Assembly (NCBI GenBank): GCA_019119615.1
Contig: DWWQ01000011.1
Span: 1 to 64,000 of the forward strand
DNA length: 64,000 nt
Source: Candidatus Alistipes stercoravium
Lineage (GTDB): Bacteria > Bacteroidota > Bacteroidia > Bacteroidales > Rikenellaceae
Direction of reading: 5' to 3'
Shown: positions 29,192-39,090 of the stretch, one piece after another
Layout of the letters: each line of letters starts with the position of its first letter
Position numbering within the stretch: the stretch's first letter is position 1
Translations under genes and position numbers: made by a program
The notes under the pieces: model-generated
The model's database searches: none
What the model was told of the DNA's origin: nothing
What the model saw: the letters and a program-made list of their open reading frames with translations, nothing else

Positions 29192-29593
29192 CTACCGCAC
29201 GAAGAGTTCCCAGCCGCGCTCGACCTCCTCGCGGTCGGCCTTCACGCCGTTCTCCACGCGCGAAATCGAGGCCGCGACGGGGACCATCGTCCGCCGGTCG
29301 CGCGTGTCGAGGCGCTCGTCGGGATCGAGGCCCGTATCGCCGGCCACGGCGCGGATGTAGGCGTCGGTGCGGTTCTCCGAGGGCGGGGCCCAGCGCGAGA
29401 TCATGCCCCGCAGCGTGTCGAGGCCGTAGCGGCGACGGTAGGTGTCCAGCAGCACGAAGATGGCGCGGTAGCCCCAGGCCAGCGATTCGAACTGCCGGAA
29501 CTCCGGGTCGCGCGACGGGCGCACCTCGCCCAGGTAGCGCACCCGCGAGAGGCGGATGTTGCCCGGGTTGCAGTTCTCCAGGCCGCGGCTCAT
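29192..29593 (-). CDS. Phage-type peptidoglycan hydrolase / 'structural protein P5'-like lysin
   Basis: SRGLENCNPGNIRLSRVRYLGEVRPSRDPEFRQFESLAWGYRAIFVLLDTYRRRYGLDTLRGMISRWAPPSENRTDAYI: pattern seen in Bacteroidota prophage lysins. Confidence 0.75.
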   Translation of the reverse strand: MSRGLENCNPGNIRLSRVRYLGEVRPSRDPEFRQFESLAWGYRAIFVLLDTYRRRYGLDTLRGMISRWAPPSENRTDAYIRAVAGDTGLDPDERLDTRDRRTMVPVAASISRVENGVKADREEVERGWELFVR

Positions 29594-30012
29594 GGCTCCA
29601 CCTCCCTTCGGATCCGGCGGTGGACGTAGCGTCGCAGCCAGCGGAAGAGCGGGGCGTCCGAGAGCTGCGCGGCGTTCTCGAGGAACGACCACAGCTCGAC
29701 GCCGCAGGTGAAGCCCGTGAACAGGCGGGCGATGTGCAGGTCCATGAAGTCGAGCACGCAGCAGTCGATGAGCCACGCCATGGCGATCGCCGTTACGGTG
29801 AGCGCCAGCTTGAGGACCGTGCGCCACGCCTCGTGGCTCTCGAAGTACCATTTGCGCCCCTCGCGGTGCGCCAGGGCCCGGTCGGCCGCCACGCCCGAGA
29901 GGAAATCGATGGCGATGAAGGCCACGGCCGTGGCCACCAGGGGCCCGATCGGCGCAAAGAGCGCCAGCAGCCCCAGCGCCGTGCCGCTAAAGAGTCTGTA
30001 CAAAACCTCCAT
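29590..30012 (-). CDS. Phage holin-like membrane protein
   Basis: TM-rich N-terminus (GTALGLLALFAPIGPLVATAVAFIAIDFLSGVAADR), overlaps the lysin start by 4 bp. Confidence 0.72.
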   Translation of the reverse strand: MEVLYRLFSGTALGLLALFAPIGPLVATAVAFIAIDFLSGVAADRALAHREGRKWYFESHEAWRTVLKLALTVTAIAMAWLIDCCVLDFMDLHIARLFTGFTCGVELWSFLENAAQLSDAPLFRWLRRYVHRRIRREVEP

Positions 30013-30460
30013 CGGTCGAGCAGCGTTTGAGGATGTTTTTTTGGGGATCGTATTCGGGGAACTCCGCGCGGTGTACGTCGAGGTAGTCCGTGGCCCGGCG
30101 CAGGAGCGTCCGGATCTCGGTGCGGAGGGCCCGGCAGAGGCAGCGCAGGGCCTCCCCGTCGGCCGGTTCGCTCCACGACGAGCGGGGTGCCGTCGTGCCG
30201 CAGGCTCCCGTGAGGATATCCAGCCGGGGCTGGAGCAGCAGACGCACGCAGAGCGCCGCGGGAGCCGCGAGGTACGCCTCGCGGAACTCCCCGTAGGCAC
30301 CCCCGAGCAGCTCGTCGTAGAGCTCCTGCCCGAGGACCGGAACGAGGTAGCGGTGCTCCGCGGCGGCGATGTCGGCCTCCGCGATGATCCCGGGAGGCAG
30401 CGTTTCGCCCTCCCGGAAGGCGAGGCGCAGGGCCTCGGCGGGGGTTATCAGGGTGTTCAT
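29987..30460 (-). CDS. Phage head-tail connector/DUF6712-like protein
   Basis: MNTLITPAEALRLAFREGETLPPGIIAEADIAAAEHRYLVPVLGQELYDELL; position between portal and lysis genes. Confidence 0.5.
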   Translation of the reverse strand: MNTLITPAEALRLAFREGETLPPGIIAEADIAAAEHRYLVPVLGQELYDELLGGAYGEFREAYLAAPAALCVRLLLQPRLDILTGACGTTAPRSSWSEPADGEALRCLCRALRTEIRTLLRRATDYLDVHRAEFPEYDPQKNILKRCSTDGGFVQTL

Positions 30461-30595: not shown

Positions 30596-31822
30596 TCAGC
30601 CGATGCTTGTGATGTTGTATTTCGAGATCTCCGAGAGGAAGGCCTGCTGCCGCGGGTCCTCGGGATCGTAATCGAGGCCGTCGGCCTTGCGGGCCTCCCA
30701 GACCTTCATGTAGATGGGTTTCGAACGCGTCGGCGGGCGGTTGATGATCTCCAGCGACGAGGTGTCGAAGCCCAGCAGCTCGGAGATCACCCGGCGAATG
30801 GGCTCCGTGAGCTCGGCCTGCTCGGCGAGGATCACCGTATTGAGCGCTACCTCGTATTCGTGGAGGATGCGCTCGGCGCTGAATCCCGAGCTGTAGTCCA
30901 GGCCGCTCAAGGTCCGGAACCACGAGTGCGCCACGACGATGTCCGCGGTGGCCTGCTCGTGCAGCGACTTCCAGTCGCCCTCGTTCTGCGAGGCGATGGG
31001 GATGAAGCGCGAATTGTCGTCGTCGCCCCCTTCGCGGATCACGAACATCACCTGCCCGGGGTTTCCGGCGAACTTCCGCTCGGCCAGCCGCACGATGCGT
31101 TCGGCGTCGGCCTCGTTGCCCGCCGAGGAGTCGAGCATCATGACGCCCGACAACTGGAACGAGTTGTCCAGGCGCGAGATGTTCCACCGGTCGGTCTTGT
31201 AGGCGATGGCCGAGACGTTCAGTCCGGCGATGTAGGGCGGCACGCCATAGTGCTCGAAGGCGGGTTCGTAGTCCTTGTAGTGGATCATCGTGCGGAGCGT
31301 GCCGTCGGCCTGCTCCTCGAAGAGCGGGTAGAGGGGCAGCGTGCGGGCCTCCTCGGCGCGGAAGGCGCTCCAGTCGTGGTGCAGCAGGATGTGCCGCGAG
31401 TCGCGGGCCACGCGGCAGCGCGTGGCGTCCTGATGGTAGAACGAGAGGAAGGTATGCCCGGGGTCGGTAACCACCTCGAGGAAGGCGTTGCCGAAGAGGG
31501 CCTTGTCGAAGGCCAGCTTGTTGAGCAGCTGCCGGAGGCTCTCGCCCTCGCCGTTCACGCGGCGGATGAAGGCCGCGAGCTGCGGCTCGTGCTCCCCGTC
31601 GCAGGTGAAGCCCTTGCCGGAGATGTAGTCGGCCTTGTCGTTGATGATCCGGCGGTGGGTTGTCGAGCGGCGCGCCATCAGGGCCAGGGCCATCGGGAAG
31701 AGGTTGTCGTCGCCCCACCGCCAGAAGGCGTCGCTCTCGACGCGCGTCGTCCCGAACGAGATGTAGGGATCCGTACGGTTGGCGACGCCGATCGCCGGTC
31801 TGAATTTTTTCGCTTTGTCCAT
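30596..31822 (-). CDS. Phage portal protein
   Basis: WRWGDDNLFPMALALMARRSTTHRRIINDKADYISGKGF...GNAFLEVV...EYEVALNTVILAEQAELTEPIRRVI: portal-like N-terminus and layout. Confidence 0.78.
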   Translation of the reverse strand: MDKAKKFRPAIGVANRTDPYISFGTTRVESDAFWRWGDDNLFPMALALMARRSTTHRRIINDKADYISGKGFTCDGEHEPQLAAFIRRVNGEGESLRQLLNKLAFDKALFGNAFLEVVTDPGHTFLSFYHQDATRCRVARDSRHILLHHDWSAFRAEEARTLPLYPLFEEQADGTLRTMIHYKDYEPAFEHYGVPPYIAGLNVSAIAYKTDRWNISRLDNSFQLSGVMMLDSSAGNEADAERIVRLAERKFAGNPGQVMFVIREGGDDDNSRFIPIASQNEGDWKSLHEQATADIVVAHSWFRTLSGLDYSSGFSAERILHEYEVALNTVILAEQAELTEPIRRVISELLGFDTSSLEIINRPPTRSKPIYMKVWEARKADGLDYDPEDPRQQAFLSEISKYNITSIG

Positions 31823-31883
31823 ATCGCAGGTTCGCTTGCCGGGGGCCGCCCGCAACGCATGTGCGGGCGGTCCCGAAGGCGGT

Positions 31884-32861
31884 TTACTGTTTGTAGAAGT
31901 AGGTGATGAGGCTCTCGTCGAGGATGCCGCAGCCGGCCATGAAGACCGCACGCTGGCGGTTCTCCATCTCGTCGGGGTTGTACCACATGCGCACCTCGTT
32001 GCCGGGCATGTCGGCCGTATTGACCGCCAGTACGAGGTTGCGACGGTCCGTGAGCATGCAGAACGACTTGTGGAACGAGGTTCCGGTCAGGTAGCTGCCC
32101 AGGCGCACGTCGATGATCGGGATGCCGTGGTAGGCGAGCGTCTTGCGGCCGTTCACCGCATCGACATAGGCCGCGTCGGCGCCCTTCGCGTCGAGGTACT
32201 TTTCGTAGAGATGGCAGATGTCCGAGGTTACGAAGTAGGCGAGCTGGCCGTCGGCCTTGAGGTCCTGCGTGCGGGTCGAGGCCTGGGTCCACAGTCCGTC
32301 GAAGAGCTCGACGACCTTCTCGGGCGAGGTCAGGTCGGCATCCGCGTAGGTCTCGTTGTAGATCTCCTCGGAGGATACCTTGGCGTTGATGAGCTTCAGG
32401 AAGCCGTCGAAGGTGTTGTAGCCCGTGCCGGCGGAGGTGTCGCCCACCCACATCGTCGCGCGCAGGTTCTCGGCCAGCGCCTGGCGGAAGAGGGCCGTCT
32501 CGGCCTTCTCGAGGTCGGTGCCCGAGAGGTCGTCCATGTGGACGTTGGTGATCGCCGAGATCTTCTCGTAGACCATCGAGAAGTAGTCGGCCGCCGAGAA
32601 GCCCATCTCGGCCTTCACGCGCTTGAGGTCGATCTCGCGCTCGATCTTCGTGGCCGCGTCGCCGCCCGACCAGCCGGCCGCGGAGTACTTCTGGAGGATG
32701 TTGCGCTGGCCGTCCCACAGCTGGACGTGCGTGGGCGTCGGCATGTTGTAGAGGACGCGCACGCCCAGATCCTGGGCCGACACGCCGGTCAGCATCGGAC
32801 GGAAGAAGACGTTCTCGAGATCCGCGCCGGTGTACTGCTTGGCATTTTCAAGGTAAATCAT
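31884..32861 (-). CDS. Putative major capsid protein
   Basis: 325 aa soluble protein between portal and ClpP-like protease; MIYLENAKQYTGADLENVFFRPMLTGVSAQDLGVRVLYNMPTPTHVQLWDGQRNIL; assignment partly by context. Confidence 0.6.
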   Translation of the reverse strand: MIYLENAKQYTGADLENVFFRPMLTGVSAQDLGVRVLYNMPTPTHVQLWDGQRNILQKYSAAGWSGGDAATKIEREIDLKRVKAEMGFSAADYFSMVYEKISAITNVHMDDLSGTDLEKAETALFRQALAENLRATMWVGDTSAGTGYNTFDGFLKLINAKVSSEEIYNETYADADLTSPEKVVELFDGLWTQASTRTQDLKADGQLAYFVTSDICHLYEKYLDAKGADAAYVDAVNGRKTLAYHGIPIIDVRLGSYLTGTSFHKSFCMLTDRRNLVLAVNTADMPGNEVRMWYNPDEMENRQRAVFMAGCGILDESLITYFYKQ

Positions 32862-32937
32862 GGTTGTGAAAGTTTTTTGAGAGATTTGTGGATTTTGTCG
32901 GTTTCGCCGTCCGGGAAGCTCCCGGGCGGCTTTTTTA

Positions 32938-33810
32938 TCAGCTGTGGAAGCACTTGGCGTCCTCGGCGTAGGCCCGTTCGTTGGCCGAGCGCATCGCCTC
33001 GCCGTAGGAGGGATCCTCGCAGGGCTCCGTGCGCGTAGGCGCCACACGCTCCCGGGCCGCCTCGGCCGCCGATATCGAGCGGCGGCGCAGTTCGGCCTCG
33101 TCGGAGGCGAAGTGCAGGACGTTGCGATCCTCGGGGAGCTCCTCCTCGGCGCGCAGCCCGAGCCCTTCAAGCAGGCGGTTCCAGCCGCGCGAGAGGTTCT
33201 TCGCCAGTCCCGGGGCCGGGCTCTCCGCCGCCTCGATCACGCGGTCGGCCAGTCCGGCGATCACGGCCTCCGCGGGCGAGAGCCAGCGGCCGTTGCCGTG
33301 GTTTTCGGCCATCAGGCGCTCGAACTCCTCGACGGGGCGTCCCGAGCGGGCGGCGTAGACTCCGGCGATGCGGGCGTCGGTCTGACGGAGCAGTTCGAGG
33401 CGCTCCTCGAGCTCCGCGGCGTTGCCCTCGGTCGAGCACATCGCCCGGTGGATCAGGTAGAGGGCGTTGGCCGAGATTTCGCGGCATCCCGCCGAGGCCG
33501 CCTGGGCGATGATCGTCGCCGCCGAGGCCGTGTAGCCGTAGCAGCGGGTCGTGATGCGGGCCCCGAGCGAGCGCAGGGCGTCGTGGATGAGCAACGCGTC
33601 GTTCACGTCGCCGCCCGTCGAGCGGATCTCGACCACCACCTCCGGGGCCTCGATCTCCGAGATGCGGCGCACCGCGTCGCGGAACTTCTCGTAGGTCGCC
33701 ACCCGGGCATCCGGCTCCTCGAACTGCCACTCCTCGGGAACGCCGATCGTCCCTTCGATCTCGATCGTGCAGCTGCCGGCCTTGTCTTTGATTTGGATTT
33801 CCGATTTCAT
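32938..33810 (-). CDS. ClpP-like (S14) head maturation protease
   Basis: VVEIRSTGGDVNDALLIHDALRSLGARITTRCYGYTASAATIIAQAA and NALYLIHRAMCSTEGNAAELEERLELL: ClpP serine and histidine regions. Confidence 0.85.
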   Translation of the reverse strand: MKSEIQIKDKAGSCTIEIEGTIGVPEEWQFEEPDARVATYEKFRDAVRRISEIEAPEVVVEIRSTGGDVNDALLIHDALRSLGARITTRCYGYTASAATIIAQAASAGCREISANALYLIHRAMCSTEGNAAELEERLELLRQTDARIAGVYAARSGRPVEEFERLMAENHGNGRWLSPAEAVIAGLADRVIEAAESPAPGLAKNLSRGWNRLLEGLGLRAEEELPEDRNVLHFASDEAELRRRSISAAEAARERVAPTRTEPCEDPSYGEAMRSANERAYAEDAKCFHS

Positions 33811-33813
33811 GAT

Positions 33814-34074
33814 TCAGTGTTTGAAAGTGTTGTAAAAAACGGTCCGTACCTTTTCGTAGGAACAGCAGAAGATATCCGACACGACGTGCATCGCCTCGCA
33901 GCGCCGCATGCCCTCCCGTTCGAGGCGGTGCACCTCCTCCCGGATCGCCAGCTGTTCGCAGCCGCGGCGCGAGAGAACCCCCAGCTCCAGGAGGCGCTCC
34001 ACGGCCTGGGCGGCCGTCAGTCCCTCGATCTCGCGGCGGGCGGTCTCGGCCAGTATCGTATCGATGCGTGTCAT
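33814..34074 (-). CDS. Small 86-aa protein of the phage-like cassette
   Basis: MTRIDTILAETARREIEGLTAAQAVERLLELGVLSRRGCEQLAIREEVHRLEREGMRRCEAMHVVSDIFCCSYEKVRTVFYNTFKH; overlaps the upstream tail-like ORF by 4 bp. Confidence 0.6.
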   Translation of the reverse strand: MTRIDTILAETARREIEGLTAAQAVERLLELGVLSRRGCEQLAIREEVHRLEREGMRRCEAMHVVSDIFCCSYEKVRTVFYNTFKH

Positions 34075-36434
34075 AGGGCGTCCTCCTCCAGCCGGTCGAA
34101 TTCACAGCGCGCCAGCCCCTGCGCCGGGTCGTACTTGCCCACGCTCCGCAGCAGGGCCCTCACCACACCGCGGCCCGTGTCGATGCGGAAGACCGAGCGG
34201 ATGTCGGGACCTCCGGTGCCGGGTGCGAAAAGCGCGGCATACTCTCCGGGGGCGATGCGCAGCGTGAGGGTGATGCGCTCGCGGAGCGCCTCGCGCCGCG
34301 TCTGGCGGTCGTAGTAGCGGTGAAGCCCCTGTGCGCCGTCGCGGTCCTCGAAGCAGAGCGTGAAGGGCTCCGCCGCGTCGTCGCCCGCGAAGTGGAAGGC
34401 CACGAGCGGATAGGAGGCCTCGTCCGAGGGGTATCCCCACCGCTCGCCATCGGGCAGGGGGTGCATCCCGACGTAGCGGACGATGCGCGGCGAGAAGTTC
34501 GTGCCGTCCTCCTCCAGGTCGTCGCGGTCGCCGACCTCGGGCAGCAGCGCCGAAGGGGCATTGAGGTAGTGGCCCACGGAGTCGATCGTCGGGTAGAAGA
34601 GCGGGTTGCGGATCGTCTGCTCGCCCTGCAGGGCCGCCGTCGAGGTGCAGTCGGCGCTCCAGGCCCCGAAGGTGCCGCCGTTCTCCGCGTCGTAACGGTT
34701 CACGGCGCCGTCGCCCTCCCGGTAGCACCACGTCCGCCGTTCGTGGATGTCGAAGGCATGGTCGCGGCGCTCGACGCCCTGCGAGAAGTCCGTGCGGGCG
34801 CTCCAGTCCGCCTCGGAGCCCGCACCGAAGAGGTCGTCGGACGGCTCGATCCAGATCCGTTTGGCCGCCTCCTCGGTGTAGAAGCGCAGGTTGAACATCT
34901 GCGCGAGGGCCTCGAGCAGCTCGACCTGCCGGATGCGGTGCTGCGCGACGTCGGTAAAACGGATCTGTTCGCCGAAACCCGGCCCGGAGAGAAAGCGCGG
35001 CGTGAGCGAACAGCTCTTGTCCAGTTCGAGGCGCATCCCCTCCTCGGCCCCGGCGAAGTAGATCTGGTCGAAATACTTGGGCGACGAGGGGCCGAGGCGT
35101 TCGGAGGCCGTGCGCATCCGCAGCTCGACGGTCGTCTCGCCCGTCTCGCCGATGTAGCCGGCGTAGAGGGCCCAGTCGCCCGTGTAGCTTGTCCAGGACG
35201 ACCCTTCGAGGATCTCCAGCACGGGGTCGGAGAAGCTCCCCGAGGACGGCGTGGAGACCAGCGTCGAGCGCACCGCGAACTGTGCCCAGTCGGAGAGCAG
35301 GCCGTTCTGGCGGTAACGCAGACGGTAGCTGGCGCCGTCGCGGTGGTCGAAGACGACGATCCGGTAGGAGAAGTTCGCGCGGAGCGAGCCGCGCAGATCC
35401 TCGTAGCGGTTGGCCAGCGTGAAGGAGAACTCCGAGCCGGGCCCGAAGTAGATCGTGTCGAAGCCGGTCAGGCGCGTCCGCGAGAGGATCCGGTGGGCGG
35501 TGGTGTACTTGAGGTAGTATTCGAAGCCGACGCTCGTCTCGACGAGGGGCGTGAAGCAGATCCGCTTGCCGTCGAGGGCGAAGCAGCCGCCGTTGTTGTA
35601 GAGCCCCTCGACCGGTGCGCCGTCCGCATCGACGCTCTGCGGCGTGGCCGTCTCGACGATGTTGCCCACGGAGTTGAGCACACTCAACGGATTGGCAATC
35701 ACCTTGCCGACCTCGTTGGCCGTCGCCGAGGCGGTGGAGAGCCTCCGGGCGAGGAAGCCCATGCGGGCCTCGGCCGCCGCGGTGTCCCGCGAGGAGTAGG
35801 CGCCGCTCATGTAGAGCGAGCGGAAGAAGTCCGAAGCGAGGAAGCGGCTCTCGATGCGGTAGCCGGCCTCGGCGAAGATCCGCTCGACGAGCGTCGCGAC
35901 ATGCAGGAAGGGGTGGTAGTCGTCCGTCGAGAGGAGCCGCTCGTTGGGCAGCAGGTCGGTCGGGCTGGCCGACCGGGGGTATTCGTCGCGGTGGACGGGG
36001 AAGAAGCGCACGGGGGTCGCGGCCGTCCAGCTGCTGCAGATCTCCGTGGGCGTGAGCAGCGCCGTGTAGTCGATGCCCAGCGTGTTGAACATCCTCAGCG
36101 AAGCGTTCGCCGCCCAGCCGGCCCCGCCGTATCCGATCTCCAGCTCGTAGCCCTCGTCCGAAGCCGCCAGCAGGCGGACCCGGCCGCGGAAGAGCTCGGC
36201 GCCGCCCTCCGTGAGGCAGGCCTCGTGCGCCGCGTCGTTGAATTTCGCGAGGGTGTGCAGCTCGCGGGCAAAGCCCGTCGCCTCGTCGTTGCGGGGCGTC
36301 GCGGGGATCGTGATCTTCCACTTGCGTCCGTCGCGGCAGGCCTCGATGTCGGCCGTCTGCGCCGCATCCCAGGCCGGAAGGAGCAGCCGCTCCGTACCCA
36401 GATCACAGGATTTGTTGTCGATCGTCAGTTCCAT
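34071..36434 (-). CDS. Large tail/baseplate-like protein (787 aa)
   Basis: MELTIDNKSCDLGTERLLLPAWDAAQTADIEACRDGRKWKITIPATPRNDEATGFARELHTLAKFNDAAHEACLTEGGAELFRGRVRLLA; context with portal, capsid and lysis genes. Confidence 0.55.
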   Translation of the reverse strand: MELTIDNKSCDLGTERLLLPAWDAAQTADIEACRDGRKWKITIPATPRNDEATGFARELHTLAKFNDAAHEACLTEGGAELFRGRVRLLAASDEGYELEIGYGGAGWAANASLRMFNTLGIDYTALLTPTEICSSWTAATPVRFFPVHRDEYPRSASPTDLLPNERLLSTDDYHPFLHVATLVERIFAEAGYRIESRFLASDFFRSLYMSGAYSSRDTAAAEARMGFLARRLSTASATANEVGKVIANPLSVLNSVGNIVETATPQSVDADGAPVEGLYNNGGCFALDGKRICFTPLVETSVGFEYYLKYTTAHRILSRTRLTGFDTIYFGPGSEFSFTLANRYEDLRGSLRANFSYRIVVFDHRDGASYRLRYRQNGLLSDWAQFAVRSTLVSTPSSGSFSDPVLEILEGSSWTSYTGDWALYAGYIGETGETTVELRMRTASERLGPSSPKYFDQIYFAGAEEGMRLELDKSCSLTPRFLSGPGFGEQIRFTDVAQHRIRQVELLEALAQMFNLRFYTEEAAKRIWIEPSDDLFGAGSEADWSARTDFSQGVERRDHAFDIHERRTWCYREGDGAVNRYDAENGGTFGAWSADCTSTAALQGEQTIRNPLFYPTIDSVGHYLNAPSALLPEVGDRDDLEEDGTNFSPRIVRYVGMHPLPDGERWGYPSDEASYPLVAFHFAGDDAAEPFTLCFEDRDGAQGLHRYYDRQTRREALRERITLTLRIAPGEYAALFAPGTGGPDIRSVFRIDTGRGVVRALLRSVGKYDPAQGLARCEFDRLEEDAL

Positions 36435-37408
36435 GTCATGGCGGTGTTTTGTCGGTCGCGGATATCGATTTCGAGGCAGCAGAGGTTCCCCAGGCGGCGG
36501 ACGACCGCCTCGTCGGTCGCCACGTCGATCGGCGTACAGCTATCCTCGCCGACGACCCACACCTCGGGCGACTCGACCAGCTCGGCCAGTGCCGTGAGCA
36601 CAGCCTCGGTCTCGTAGGCCGAGACGAGCGTGCGCGTCGCCTCACGGCGGCGGGGCACCGCAACCAGCCCCTCGGGTCCCTCGGCGCGGAGCTTCTCGAC
36701 CTGCACGGTCGTCGTCCGCACGACGGGGAAGCTGTACTGCTCGACCGAGCCGGCGCTGCTGCGCCACGCCACGCGCACGGCCTGCTCGGCGGCCGGCACG
36801 ACGGTGTATTCGACCGTGGCGATCCCGTCGATCTCGACCGTCAGCGTGTCGGCCCCGGGGAAGTCGCGCGTGTCGAGGACGAAGAGCACTGGACCCTTCA
36901 GAAAGGCGGAGTAGCTCTGAGCCGTCATCGTGTCGGCCGAGCGGGCCGTAACGGTGGCCTTGACCGTTCCGGAGTCCGGGGCGAGGAGCGTCAGTTCGTC
37001 GCGCGCTCCCTCGGGGATGAGACGTTGGAGGGGGAGGGTTGTCAGCAGAGCCGGGGCGGCCACCTGCGTGCGGCCGGCCAGGAAGGTACGCTCGGGAGCC
37101 GTCGCCGCAGCCCCGTCGGGGAGGGTTCCCGAGGGTCCGACGGCCACCGTGGCCGTAACCGTGCGGCCCGTGGCGGCGTAGAATCCCGTGTCGCTCACCA
37201 CGGGCAGGAAATGCAGTGCGCGGCGCAGGAAGGGGGCGGCATCGAAACGGGCCGCGGCACTGGCGACGAAGCGCAGCGTGCCGTAAAGCGTCGAGCCGCT
37301 CCGGTCGGCGATGCGGATGTCGAGGTCTTCGGCCGCGGAGTGCTCCACGGCGTAGAGCACCTCGGCGCCGAGCGGCGCATACTGGGACGGAATCTGTGAG
37401 AAGGTCAT
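36425..37408 (-). CDS. Tail/appendage-like protein (327 aa)
   Basis: MTFSQIPSQYAPLGAEVLYAVEHSAAEDLDIRIADRSGSTLYGTLRFVASAAARFDAAPFLRRALHF; first gene of the cassette, overlaps the next by 10 bp. Confidence 0.5.
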   Translation of the reverse strand: MTFSQIPSQYAPLGAEVLYAVEHSAAEDLDIRIADRSGSTLYGTLRFVASAAARFDAAPFLRRALHFLPVVSDTGFYAATGRTVTATVAVGPSGTLPDGAAATAPERTFLAGRTQVAAPALLTTLPLQRLIPEGARDELTLLAPDSGTVKATVTARSADTMTAQSYSAFLKGPVLFVLDTRDFPGADTLTVEIDGIATVEYTVVPAAEQAVRVAWRSSAGSVEQYSFPVVRTTTVQVEKLRAEGPEGLVAVPRRREATRTLVSAYETEAVLTALAELVESPEVWVVGEDSCTPIDVATDEAVVRRLGNLCCLEIDIRDRQNTAMTWN

Positions 37409-37605
37409 GGGATAAGGGGTTTTTGGAGAATCCGGGGTTGCGACGGACACCGCCCGGCGCCGGGGGCCGCCGCCCGCCTGCGGGATGGATGAAAAGGGGC
37501 GCAGAAGACCCGGGGGTGAAAGGAATACGACGGCAGAGCTGCGAGCTGCGGACAAAGCCGCGGGGCGGGGAATCCCCCGACGGCGGGCCGGGGTGTTGAA
37601 AAGTC

Positions 37606-37691
37606 CGTGGATAAACCGTGGATAAAATGTGAATGGATGTGGATAAGTCTACACAACCCGCTGGTACCGAATGGTCTCCGATTGTTGATAA
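37606..37691. promoter_or_regulatory. Cluster of four DnaA-box-like sites
   Basis: CGTGGATAA at 37606-37614 and 37617-37625, TGTGGATAA (exact reverse complement of TTATCCACA) at 37638-37646, TGTTGATAA at 37683-37691; all in the same orientation. Confidence 0.65.
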
Positions 37692-37730
37692 GCGCCCCCG
37701 GCGGGGCTGTGCGGGTGTGGATTCCGGAGG

Positions 37731-37762
37731 CAAATATACGACACGGCGACCCCCCTTGTCAA
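37731..37762 (-). promoter_or_regulatory. Leftward promoter of the phage-like cassette: TTGACA-N18-TATATTTG
   Basis: Minus strand TTGACA (37757-37762) and TATATTTG (37731-37738), 18-nt spacer. Confidence 0.6.
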
Positions 37763-37854: not shown

Positions 37855-39090
37855 ATGAAATCCGTCATGAAACATCTGATTCTCCTCTGCGTCGCCCTCG
37901 TCGGCGCCGCGACCGCCTCGGCCCAGAAGTGGGAGGGGCTGGCCGACACGCCCCCGATGGGGTGGAACTCCTGGAACAAGTTCGGCTGCAACATCGACGA
38001 GCGGATGATCCGCGAGATGGCCGACGCGCTGGTCGATACGGGCCTCGCGGAGGCGGGCTACGTCTACATCAACCTCGACGACTGCTGGCACGCCCCGGAG
38101 CGCGACGCCGACGGATTCCCGCAGTGCGACACGACGCGTTTCCCGAGCGGCATGAAGGCCCTTGCGGACTACGTCCATGCAAAAGGGCTCAAACTGGGCA
38201 TCTACTCCGACGCCGGATGGACGACCTGCGCCGGACGTTTCGGCAGCCTCGGCCACGAGTACCAGGATGCCCTGCAGTACGCCCGCTGGGGCATCGACTA
38301 CCTGAAATACGACTGGTGCAACACGGCGGATATCAATCCCAAGGGGGCCTATACGCTCATGCGCGAGGCGCTGCGCGCCGCCGGGCGCCCGATCCTCTTT
38401 TCGATCTGCGAGTGGGGTTCGAACAAGCCCTGGGAGTGGGCTCCCGAAATCGGCCACATGTGGCGCACGACGGGCGACATCGGCCTCTCGTTCTCCGACC
38501 CGGAGGTCTTCGAGGGTCCGTGGAAACCCCGCACGGTGCTGCAGAACGTCGATACGAACGCCCCGCTGCGCCGCTACGCCGGCCCGGGCCACTGGAACGA
38601 CCCCGACATGCTCGAGGTGGGCAACGGCATGACGGTCAATCAGGACCGCGCGCACTTCACGCTCTGGTGCATGATGGCCGCGCCGCTGATCCTGGGCAAC
38701 GACCTGCGCACGATGACCGACGAGACGGCGGCGATCCTCACCGACCGCGAGGTGATCGCCATCGACCAGGATCCGCTGGGCGTGCAGGGGCTGCGCTACG
38801 CCACCGACAACGGCATCGAGATCTGGTTCAAGCCCCTCGCCGACGGCGACTGGGCCTTCTGCCTCTTCAACCGCACGCACGAGGAGCGCACCTACGAGAT
38901 CGACTGGCAGCTCTACTGCTTCACCGACACGGAGGTCTCGCAGCGCTCCACGGACTTCGACCGCATCGTCTACGAGGGCCGCGACCTGTGGAACGGCGGC
39001 AAGAGCTTCCGCACGGACCGTCCGCGCAGCGTGGTCATCCCGGCCGAGGATGTCGTCCTCTACCGTCTGAAACCCGTCGCCGGGCGCTGA
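37855..39090 (+). CDS. Alpha-galactosidase, glycoside hydrolase family 27
   Basis: Signal peptide; PPMGWNSWNKFGCNIDERMIREMADALVDTGLAEAGYVYINLDDCWH; LKYDWCN; WNDPDMLEVGN. Confidence 0.96.
   Translation: MKSVMKHLILLCVALVGAATASAQKWEGLADTPPMGWNSWNKFGCNIDERMIREMADALVDTGLAEAGYVYINLDDCWHAPERDADGFPQCDTTRFPSGMKALADYVHAKGLKLGIYSDAGWTTCAGRFGSLGHEYQDALQYARWGIDYLKYDWCNTADINPKGAYTLMREALRAAGRPILFSICEWGSNKPWEWAPEIGHMWRTTGDIGLSFSDPEVFEGPWKPRTVLQNVDTNAPLRRYAGPGHWNDPDMLEVGNGMTVNQDRAHFTLWCMMAAPLILGNDLRTMTDETAAILTDREVIAIDQDPLGVQGLRYATDNGIEIWFKPLADGDWAFCLFNRTHEERTYEIDWQLYCFTDTEVSQRSTDFDRIVYEGRDLWNGGKSFRTDRPRSVVIPAEDVVLYRLKPVAGR

Follow-up and report, generated by a model that had tools for sequence, protein, structure and literature searches.

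This locus raises the question of why a row of DnaA-box-like sites should stand between a leftward phage-like gene cassette and a run of host genes. The original prediction had offered three roles for it: a chromosomal oriC, a DnaA titration site or a DnaA-controlled operator of the virus-like cassette. Known DnaA regulons contain mainly genes of replication, repair and nucleotide metabolism. The site was analysed here in a stretch of 64,000 nucleotides (the window) and in related genomes, which are designated by G numbers.

The box array and its promoter

When the sequence was re-read at 37606-37691, the four co-oriented 9-mers of the original prediction were all found, on the minus strand and reading TTATCNAC(A/G), and its third site did match the E. 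coli consensus exactly. The count of four was incomplete, as a fifth box extends the row (Table 1). Going leftward, boxes 1 and 2 are separated by 36 bp, boxes 2 and 3 by 12 bp, boxes 3 and 4 by 2 bp and boxes 4 and 5 by 3 bp. By the E. coli rule of double boxes 2-3 bp apart, the window contains two overlapping pairs (boxes 3/4 and 4/5). The motif TTATCCACR was observed at 15 sites in the 2.12-Mb, 64-contig draft genome, three of which are found inside 41 bp of the array, and no second TTATCCAC-N2-30-TTATCCAC pair occurs elsewhere in the window's own genome. When one mismatch was tolerated, six box matches were obtained over the whole window, where 2.8 are expected. Because six of 100 shuffles also reach six matches, the box density over the window as a whole is unremarkable and the clustering is the striking feature.

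A promoter scan of the spacer returned only one strong sigma-70-like match (TTGACA-18-TATATT at 37762-37733 on the minus strand, 11/12), which extends to the Bacteroidetes form TATATTTG. Counted from the -7 element, the array occupies +39 to +136. Since the first box lies 39 nt after the promoter, the boxes are presumed to be located within the transcribed leader of the cassette. A separate promoter-like element, TATCTTTG, was noticed at about 37826 on the plus strand and may serve the GH27 alpha-galactosidase gene.

Table 1. Features of the box array, its promoter and the cassette (positions in the window)
Feature	Position	Strand	Remarks
Promoter TTGACAAGGGGGGTCGCCGTGTCGTATATTTG, Bacteroidetes -33/-7 form	37731..37762	-	points left to the capsid cassette; conserved upstream of the cassette in relatives
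5' leader of the cassette operon	37409..37725	-	transcript start near 37725 inferred from the promoter; first cassette ATG at 37408
DnaA box 1 (anchor) TTATCAACA	37683..37691	-	counterpart at about +37 in most leaders
DnaA box 2 TTATCCACA	37638..37646	-	exact E. coli consensus; register about +82
DnaA box 3 TTATCCACG	37617..37625	-	2 bp from box 4
DnaA box 4 TTATCCACG	37606..37614	-	head-to-tail pairs with boxes 3 and 5
DnaA box 5 TTTTCAACA	37594..37602	-	extends the row; absent from the original prediction
First cassette gene (327 aa), no family match	36428..37408	-	conserved with the cassette
Cassette gene (787 aa), no family match	34074..36434	-	tail-like by guess only
Small cassette gene (86 aa), no family match	33817..34074	-
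ClpP-related head-maturation protease	32941..33810	-	PF00574, phrog_94, NF045542 (below its cut-off)
Likely major capsid protein	31887..33170	-	weak matches to phrog_1623 and phrog_212; between portal and protease
Phage portal protein	30599..31951	-	phrog_11226, phrog_12, TIGR01540 (below cut-off)
DUF6712 protein	29990..30460	-	PF20459
Membrane-rich gene, like endolysin/tape-measure profiles; last of the cassette	29195..29851	-	phrog_873, phrog_2276

The cassette and its distribution in the genus

The phage-like genes span 29.2-37.4 kb, while HAD-like, DUF2520 and comEC host genes are located to the left of about 29.2 kb, with comEC the first of them beyond the end of the cassette. The leftward block of 23.8-37.4 kb is thus phage-like only in part. 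The true start of the likely capsid gene is probably inside the open reading frame given in Table 1. No terminase was recognised among the cassette proteins with Pfam, PHROGs or NCBIfam. To the right of the array, a GH27 alpha-galactosidase gene (37855-39087, plus strand) is followed by mqnA, corA, a flippase gene, holB and folK. Among the relatives examined, only G137 (the closest relative of the window genome) and G054 share this position of the alpha-galactosidase gene between the cassette and mqnA.

A strong homologue of the portal was found in 98 of 101 genomes of the genus, including all 39 of good quality, and it was nearly always present as a single copy, with identities across the genus of 62-97%. 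Both matched genomes of the sister genus also have the portal (67-70% identity), and the other genomes sampled from the order gave only two distant cases. Most of twenty corA regions from the same genus keep the order of cassette, spacer and mqnA/corA, and in several of them comEC could be identified on the other side of the cassette. The presence of the portal in nearly all genomes of the genus and in the sister genus indicates that the cassette is old and mostly vertically inherited, and is not a recent prophage. Phage-derived head genes that are core and vertically inherited, here with the same gene order, are a mark of gene transfer agents (GTAs), and the cassette is perhaps a domesticated, GTA-like gene set.

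Genuine phage carriers of the cassette were sought in a phage collection, which yielded just two human fecal scaffolds, MT838736.1 and MT838805.1. Both are filed as 'Bacteriophage sp.' and bear host genes, with pieces of the cassette joined to mqnA-like or comEC sequence, and they may represent either host DNA that had been packaged or contaminating bacterial sequence. At the corA loci of eight relatives (G011, G014, G017, G021, G022, G025, G051 and G055), many contigs were observed to begin about 1.1-1.4 kb upstream of corA, and in the genomes sharing this break the cassette sits on another contig. These contig starts are a common assembly break, which may reflect a repeat at a rearrangement point.

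Probable location of the chromosomal origin

A cluster of close-packed, co-oriented DnaA boxes would be in keeping with a replication origin, either the chromosomal oriC or a phage-type origin of the cassette. GC skew, which was followed in three genomes (G048, G054 and G208), places the switch elsewhere, at mrp-nadA and about 110-170 kb from the array. Along 400 kb of one G048 contig, the skew does not change at the homologous site and its minimum, at about 30 kb, coincides with five TTATCGACA that are found in both orientations in the interval from mrp to an RNase-P-like sequence. In G208 (3.38 Mb, one contig), the switch from negative to positive skew falls at mrp (1,153-1,154 kb), and the array is 109 kb away. 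For G054, a change of sign was seen between about 362 and 400 kb, a stretch that includes mrp (391-392 kb); the array of this genome is at 514 kb.

Furthermore, boxes and 60-bp stretches of 83-92% AT were found together in the spacer downstream of mrp in fifteen genomes, one of which is that of the window, where this origin-like mrp-nadA spacer is located at C23:25896-26480. A nadA-like gene, recognised by eye, follows it in the window's genome, G137, G208 and G054. The array region, by comparison, reaches at most 62% AT in 60 bp and has no AT-rich unwinding element. The mrp-nadA spacer is therefore the likely chromosomal oriC of the genus. An oriC beside dnaA was also considered and rejected, as none of twelve genomes has more than two boxes, and these scattered, at distances of up to about 1.5 kb from dnaA.

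For the window's own strain, the rejection of the array as oriC rests on conservation, as the array (C63) and mrp (C23) are on separate contigs, the skew signs in the window track local gene direction and a 64-contig draft permits no genome-wide curve. All boxes of the array point the same way, and none of the cassette genes was recognised as a replication gene. An origin of either type at the array is extremely improbable, and the oriC option of the original prediction was abandoned.

Identity of the sites

A k-mer enrichment search without a preset motif, for which the mrp-nadA spacers were located through the mrp protein, returned TTATC[AG]ACA in both these spacers and the cassette leaders. 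In 1.459 Mb sampled from three genomes, four close double boxes were observed, all in a cassette leader or in oriC. The mrp-nadA oriC of G054 contains two of them, which overlap, and the G048 and G208 cassette leaders contain one apiece. The genome's own DnaA has the usual domain-IV signature, here GGRNHATVLH, and TTATC(A/G/C)ACA is the candidate DnaA-box consensus of the genus.

Alternatively, the sites might bind another protein or work in the leader RNA, with their likeness to DnaA boxes being only apparent. Such a reading would accommodate position 6, where most leader boxes have A or G in place of the C of E. coli, as well as the presumed transcription of the boxes and the hairpins seen in some leaders. 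We consider it improbable because the oriC cluster located by skew consists of the same A/G/C variants. A structured leader RNA was also rejected, as no consensus fold was obtained with RNAalifold for 28 leaders and there is no Rfam match in the window.

Conservation of the array among relatives

Boxes matching TTWTC[ACG]AC[AG] were counted in 45 cassette leaders, for which the choice among several promoters was made partly by box count; 105 sense and 8 antisense boxes were found, with 1.4 expected in shuffles. At least one box is present in 41 of the 45 leaders, and a strict 2-3-bp double box in 15. A recount was restricted to leaders with a promoter beginning TTGACAAGGG, after removal of similar leaders, and gave 68 sense and 6 antisense boxes (1.1 expected) with boxes in 26 of 28 leaders; these leaders come from related genomes and the counts are non-independent, a kinship which the removal of similar leaders reduces and does not abolish. 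The register of the boxes after the -7 element was observed to be fixed in most leaders, at about +37, +82, +92, +103 and +114.

Where the cassette has moved, as for example in G002, G041, G051 and G017, the promoter and the boxes are found upstream of it at the new locus, and the old spacer upstream of mqnA contains no such array in G002, G015 and G050. The conservation in relatives that the original prediction had named as a check was observed, and the boxes mostly travel with the cassette. The relocated leaders have fewer boxes (a mean of 1.1 versus 2.6), which are weak or missing in several, and the cassette leader of G139 has none. A wider regulon on the same promoter was considered and rejected, as eight loci with this promoter before other genes have one box in total.

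The cassette leaders of the two sister-genus genomes have a similar promoter and no DnaA boxes, so the array would have arisen, or been kept, only in the genus of the window. We noticed that the sister-genus cassettes begin with an additional small gene (about 138 aa), and that the same small gene occurs directly after the boxes in some genomes of the window's genus (G002, G211 and G026).

Proposed regulation of the cassette

We regard it as fairly probable that the sites form an array of boxes to which DnaA binds cooperatively, located in the leader of a capsid operon that is of phage origin and has been inherited vertically, and that DnaA there represses or times transcription. Among the options of the original prediction, a DnaA operator is the best supported because the boxes of the leader stand in fixed register to a conserved promoter, have one orientation and mostly follow the cassette. 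A DnaA-regulated promoter is also recognised by boxes that lie just downstream of it and are conserved in relatives, as they are here. DnaA of E. coli binds almost exclusively to pairs of boxes 2-3 bp apart and, when bound in transcribed DNA, has been described as a roadblock to the elongating polymerase (PMC11317965). The E. coli oriC contains two arrays of four weak sites with 2-bp separations (PMC6727663).

By this model, RNA polymerase would begin transcription to the left, about 7 nt beyond TATATTTG. DnaA, which is probably in its ATP form, would take the anchor box and then occupy the close-packed boxes in head-to-tail fashion, giving an oligomer over about +39 to +136 that would impede the polymerase (roadblock repression). 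Expression of the cassette would then depend on the amount of DnaA or on its ATP state and would in this way track the replication cycle.

Some observations count against an operator. The sister genus has the cassette and a similar promoter without the array, several relocated arrays are weak or missing, and the strict double box is restricted to a third of the leaders. In addition, an operator role would not by itself account for the conserved nearness of the array to oriC (55-171 kb). This nearness, which amounts to 1.9-8.6% of the genome between the array and the mrp-oriC in ten relatives, would be expected of the main rival, an element like datA of E. coli or the DBCs of B. subtilis that titrates DnaA or promotes ATP hydrolysis near oriC and thereby times initiation. 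The cassette would in that case be a mere neighbour, although transcription through the array may modulate it. Clusters of this type have been described for B. subtilis and Streptomyces (PMC10950094), and the weaker arrays at relocated cassettes also favour a timing element. We nevertheless find it unlikely, as the boxes are one-way and in fixed register to the cassette promoter, several relocated cassettes have kept them and the closeness to oriC is partly inherited synteny. The operator and the datA-like role could coexist.

A further step from the operator would be a replication-coupled, GTA-like particle system, in which a core capsid operon has an orisome-like DnaA array in its leader and particles would be produced in step with the DnaA-ATP cycle. 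This is a tentative proposal, possible if somewhat doubtful.

Comparison with known systems

The double boxes of the array resemble those of E. coli nrdA, mioC, uvrB, dnaA and the asnC terminator, which are also 2-3 bp apart (PMC11317965). DnaA at the E. coli roadblock sites is bound in the transcribed region (PMC11317965), and the array likewise lies in a presumed leader. The targets of E. coli DnaA are replication, repair and nucleotide genes, whereas the target here would be a phage-derived capsid operon, with up to five boxes. An anchor with close-packed, co-oriented boxes is also reminiscent of the E. coli oriC half-array, where four weak sites 2 bp apart lie beside a strong R box (PMC6727663). 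Unlike that half-array, the array described here is without an AT-rich unwinding element, runs one way, lies off the skew switch and is found downstream of a promoter. It shares with datA and with the clusters of B. subtilis and Streptomyces (PMC10950094) the property of being a non-origin DnaA-box cluster, here 55-171 kb from the origin in ten relatives, and differs from datA in being locked in register to the promoter of a phage-like cassette.

The cassette itself is similar to the gene transfer agents RcGTA and CcGTA in that phage-derived head genes form a core, vertically inherited chromosomal cassette. It differs from them in having only about eight genes, with no terminase recognised among them. 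Known GTA regulators such as GafA differ from the DnaA array.

Taken together, the analysis suggests that the replication machinery may control a phage-derived capsid cluster that is kept by almost every species of the genus. The genus gains a located candidate oriC (mrp-nadA) and a candidate DnaA-box consensus of its own, TTATC(A/G/C)ACA, and the purpose and timing of conserved phage-head cassettes become testable in cultured species. If the proposed regulation is true, gut Bacteroidales would couple a virus-derived function to their replication clock through a genus-wide DnaA array on the leader of a capsid operon.
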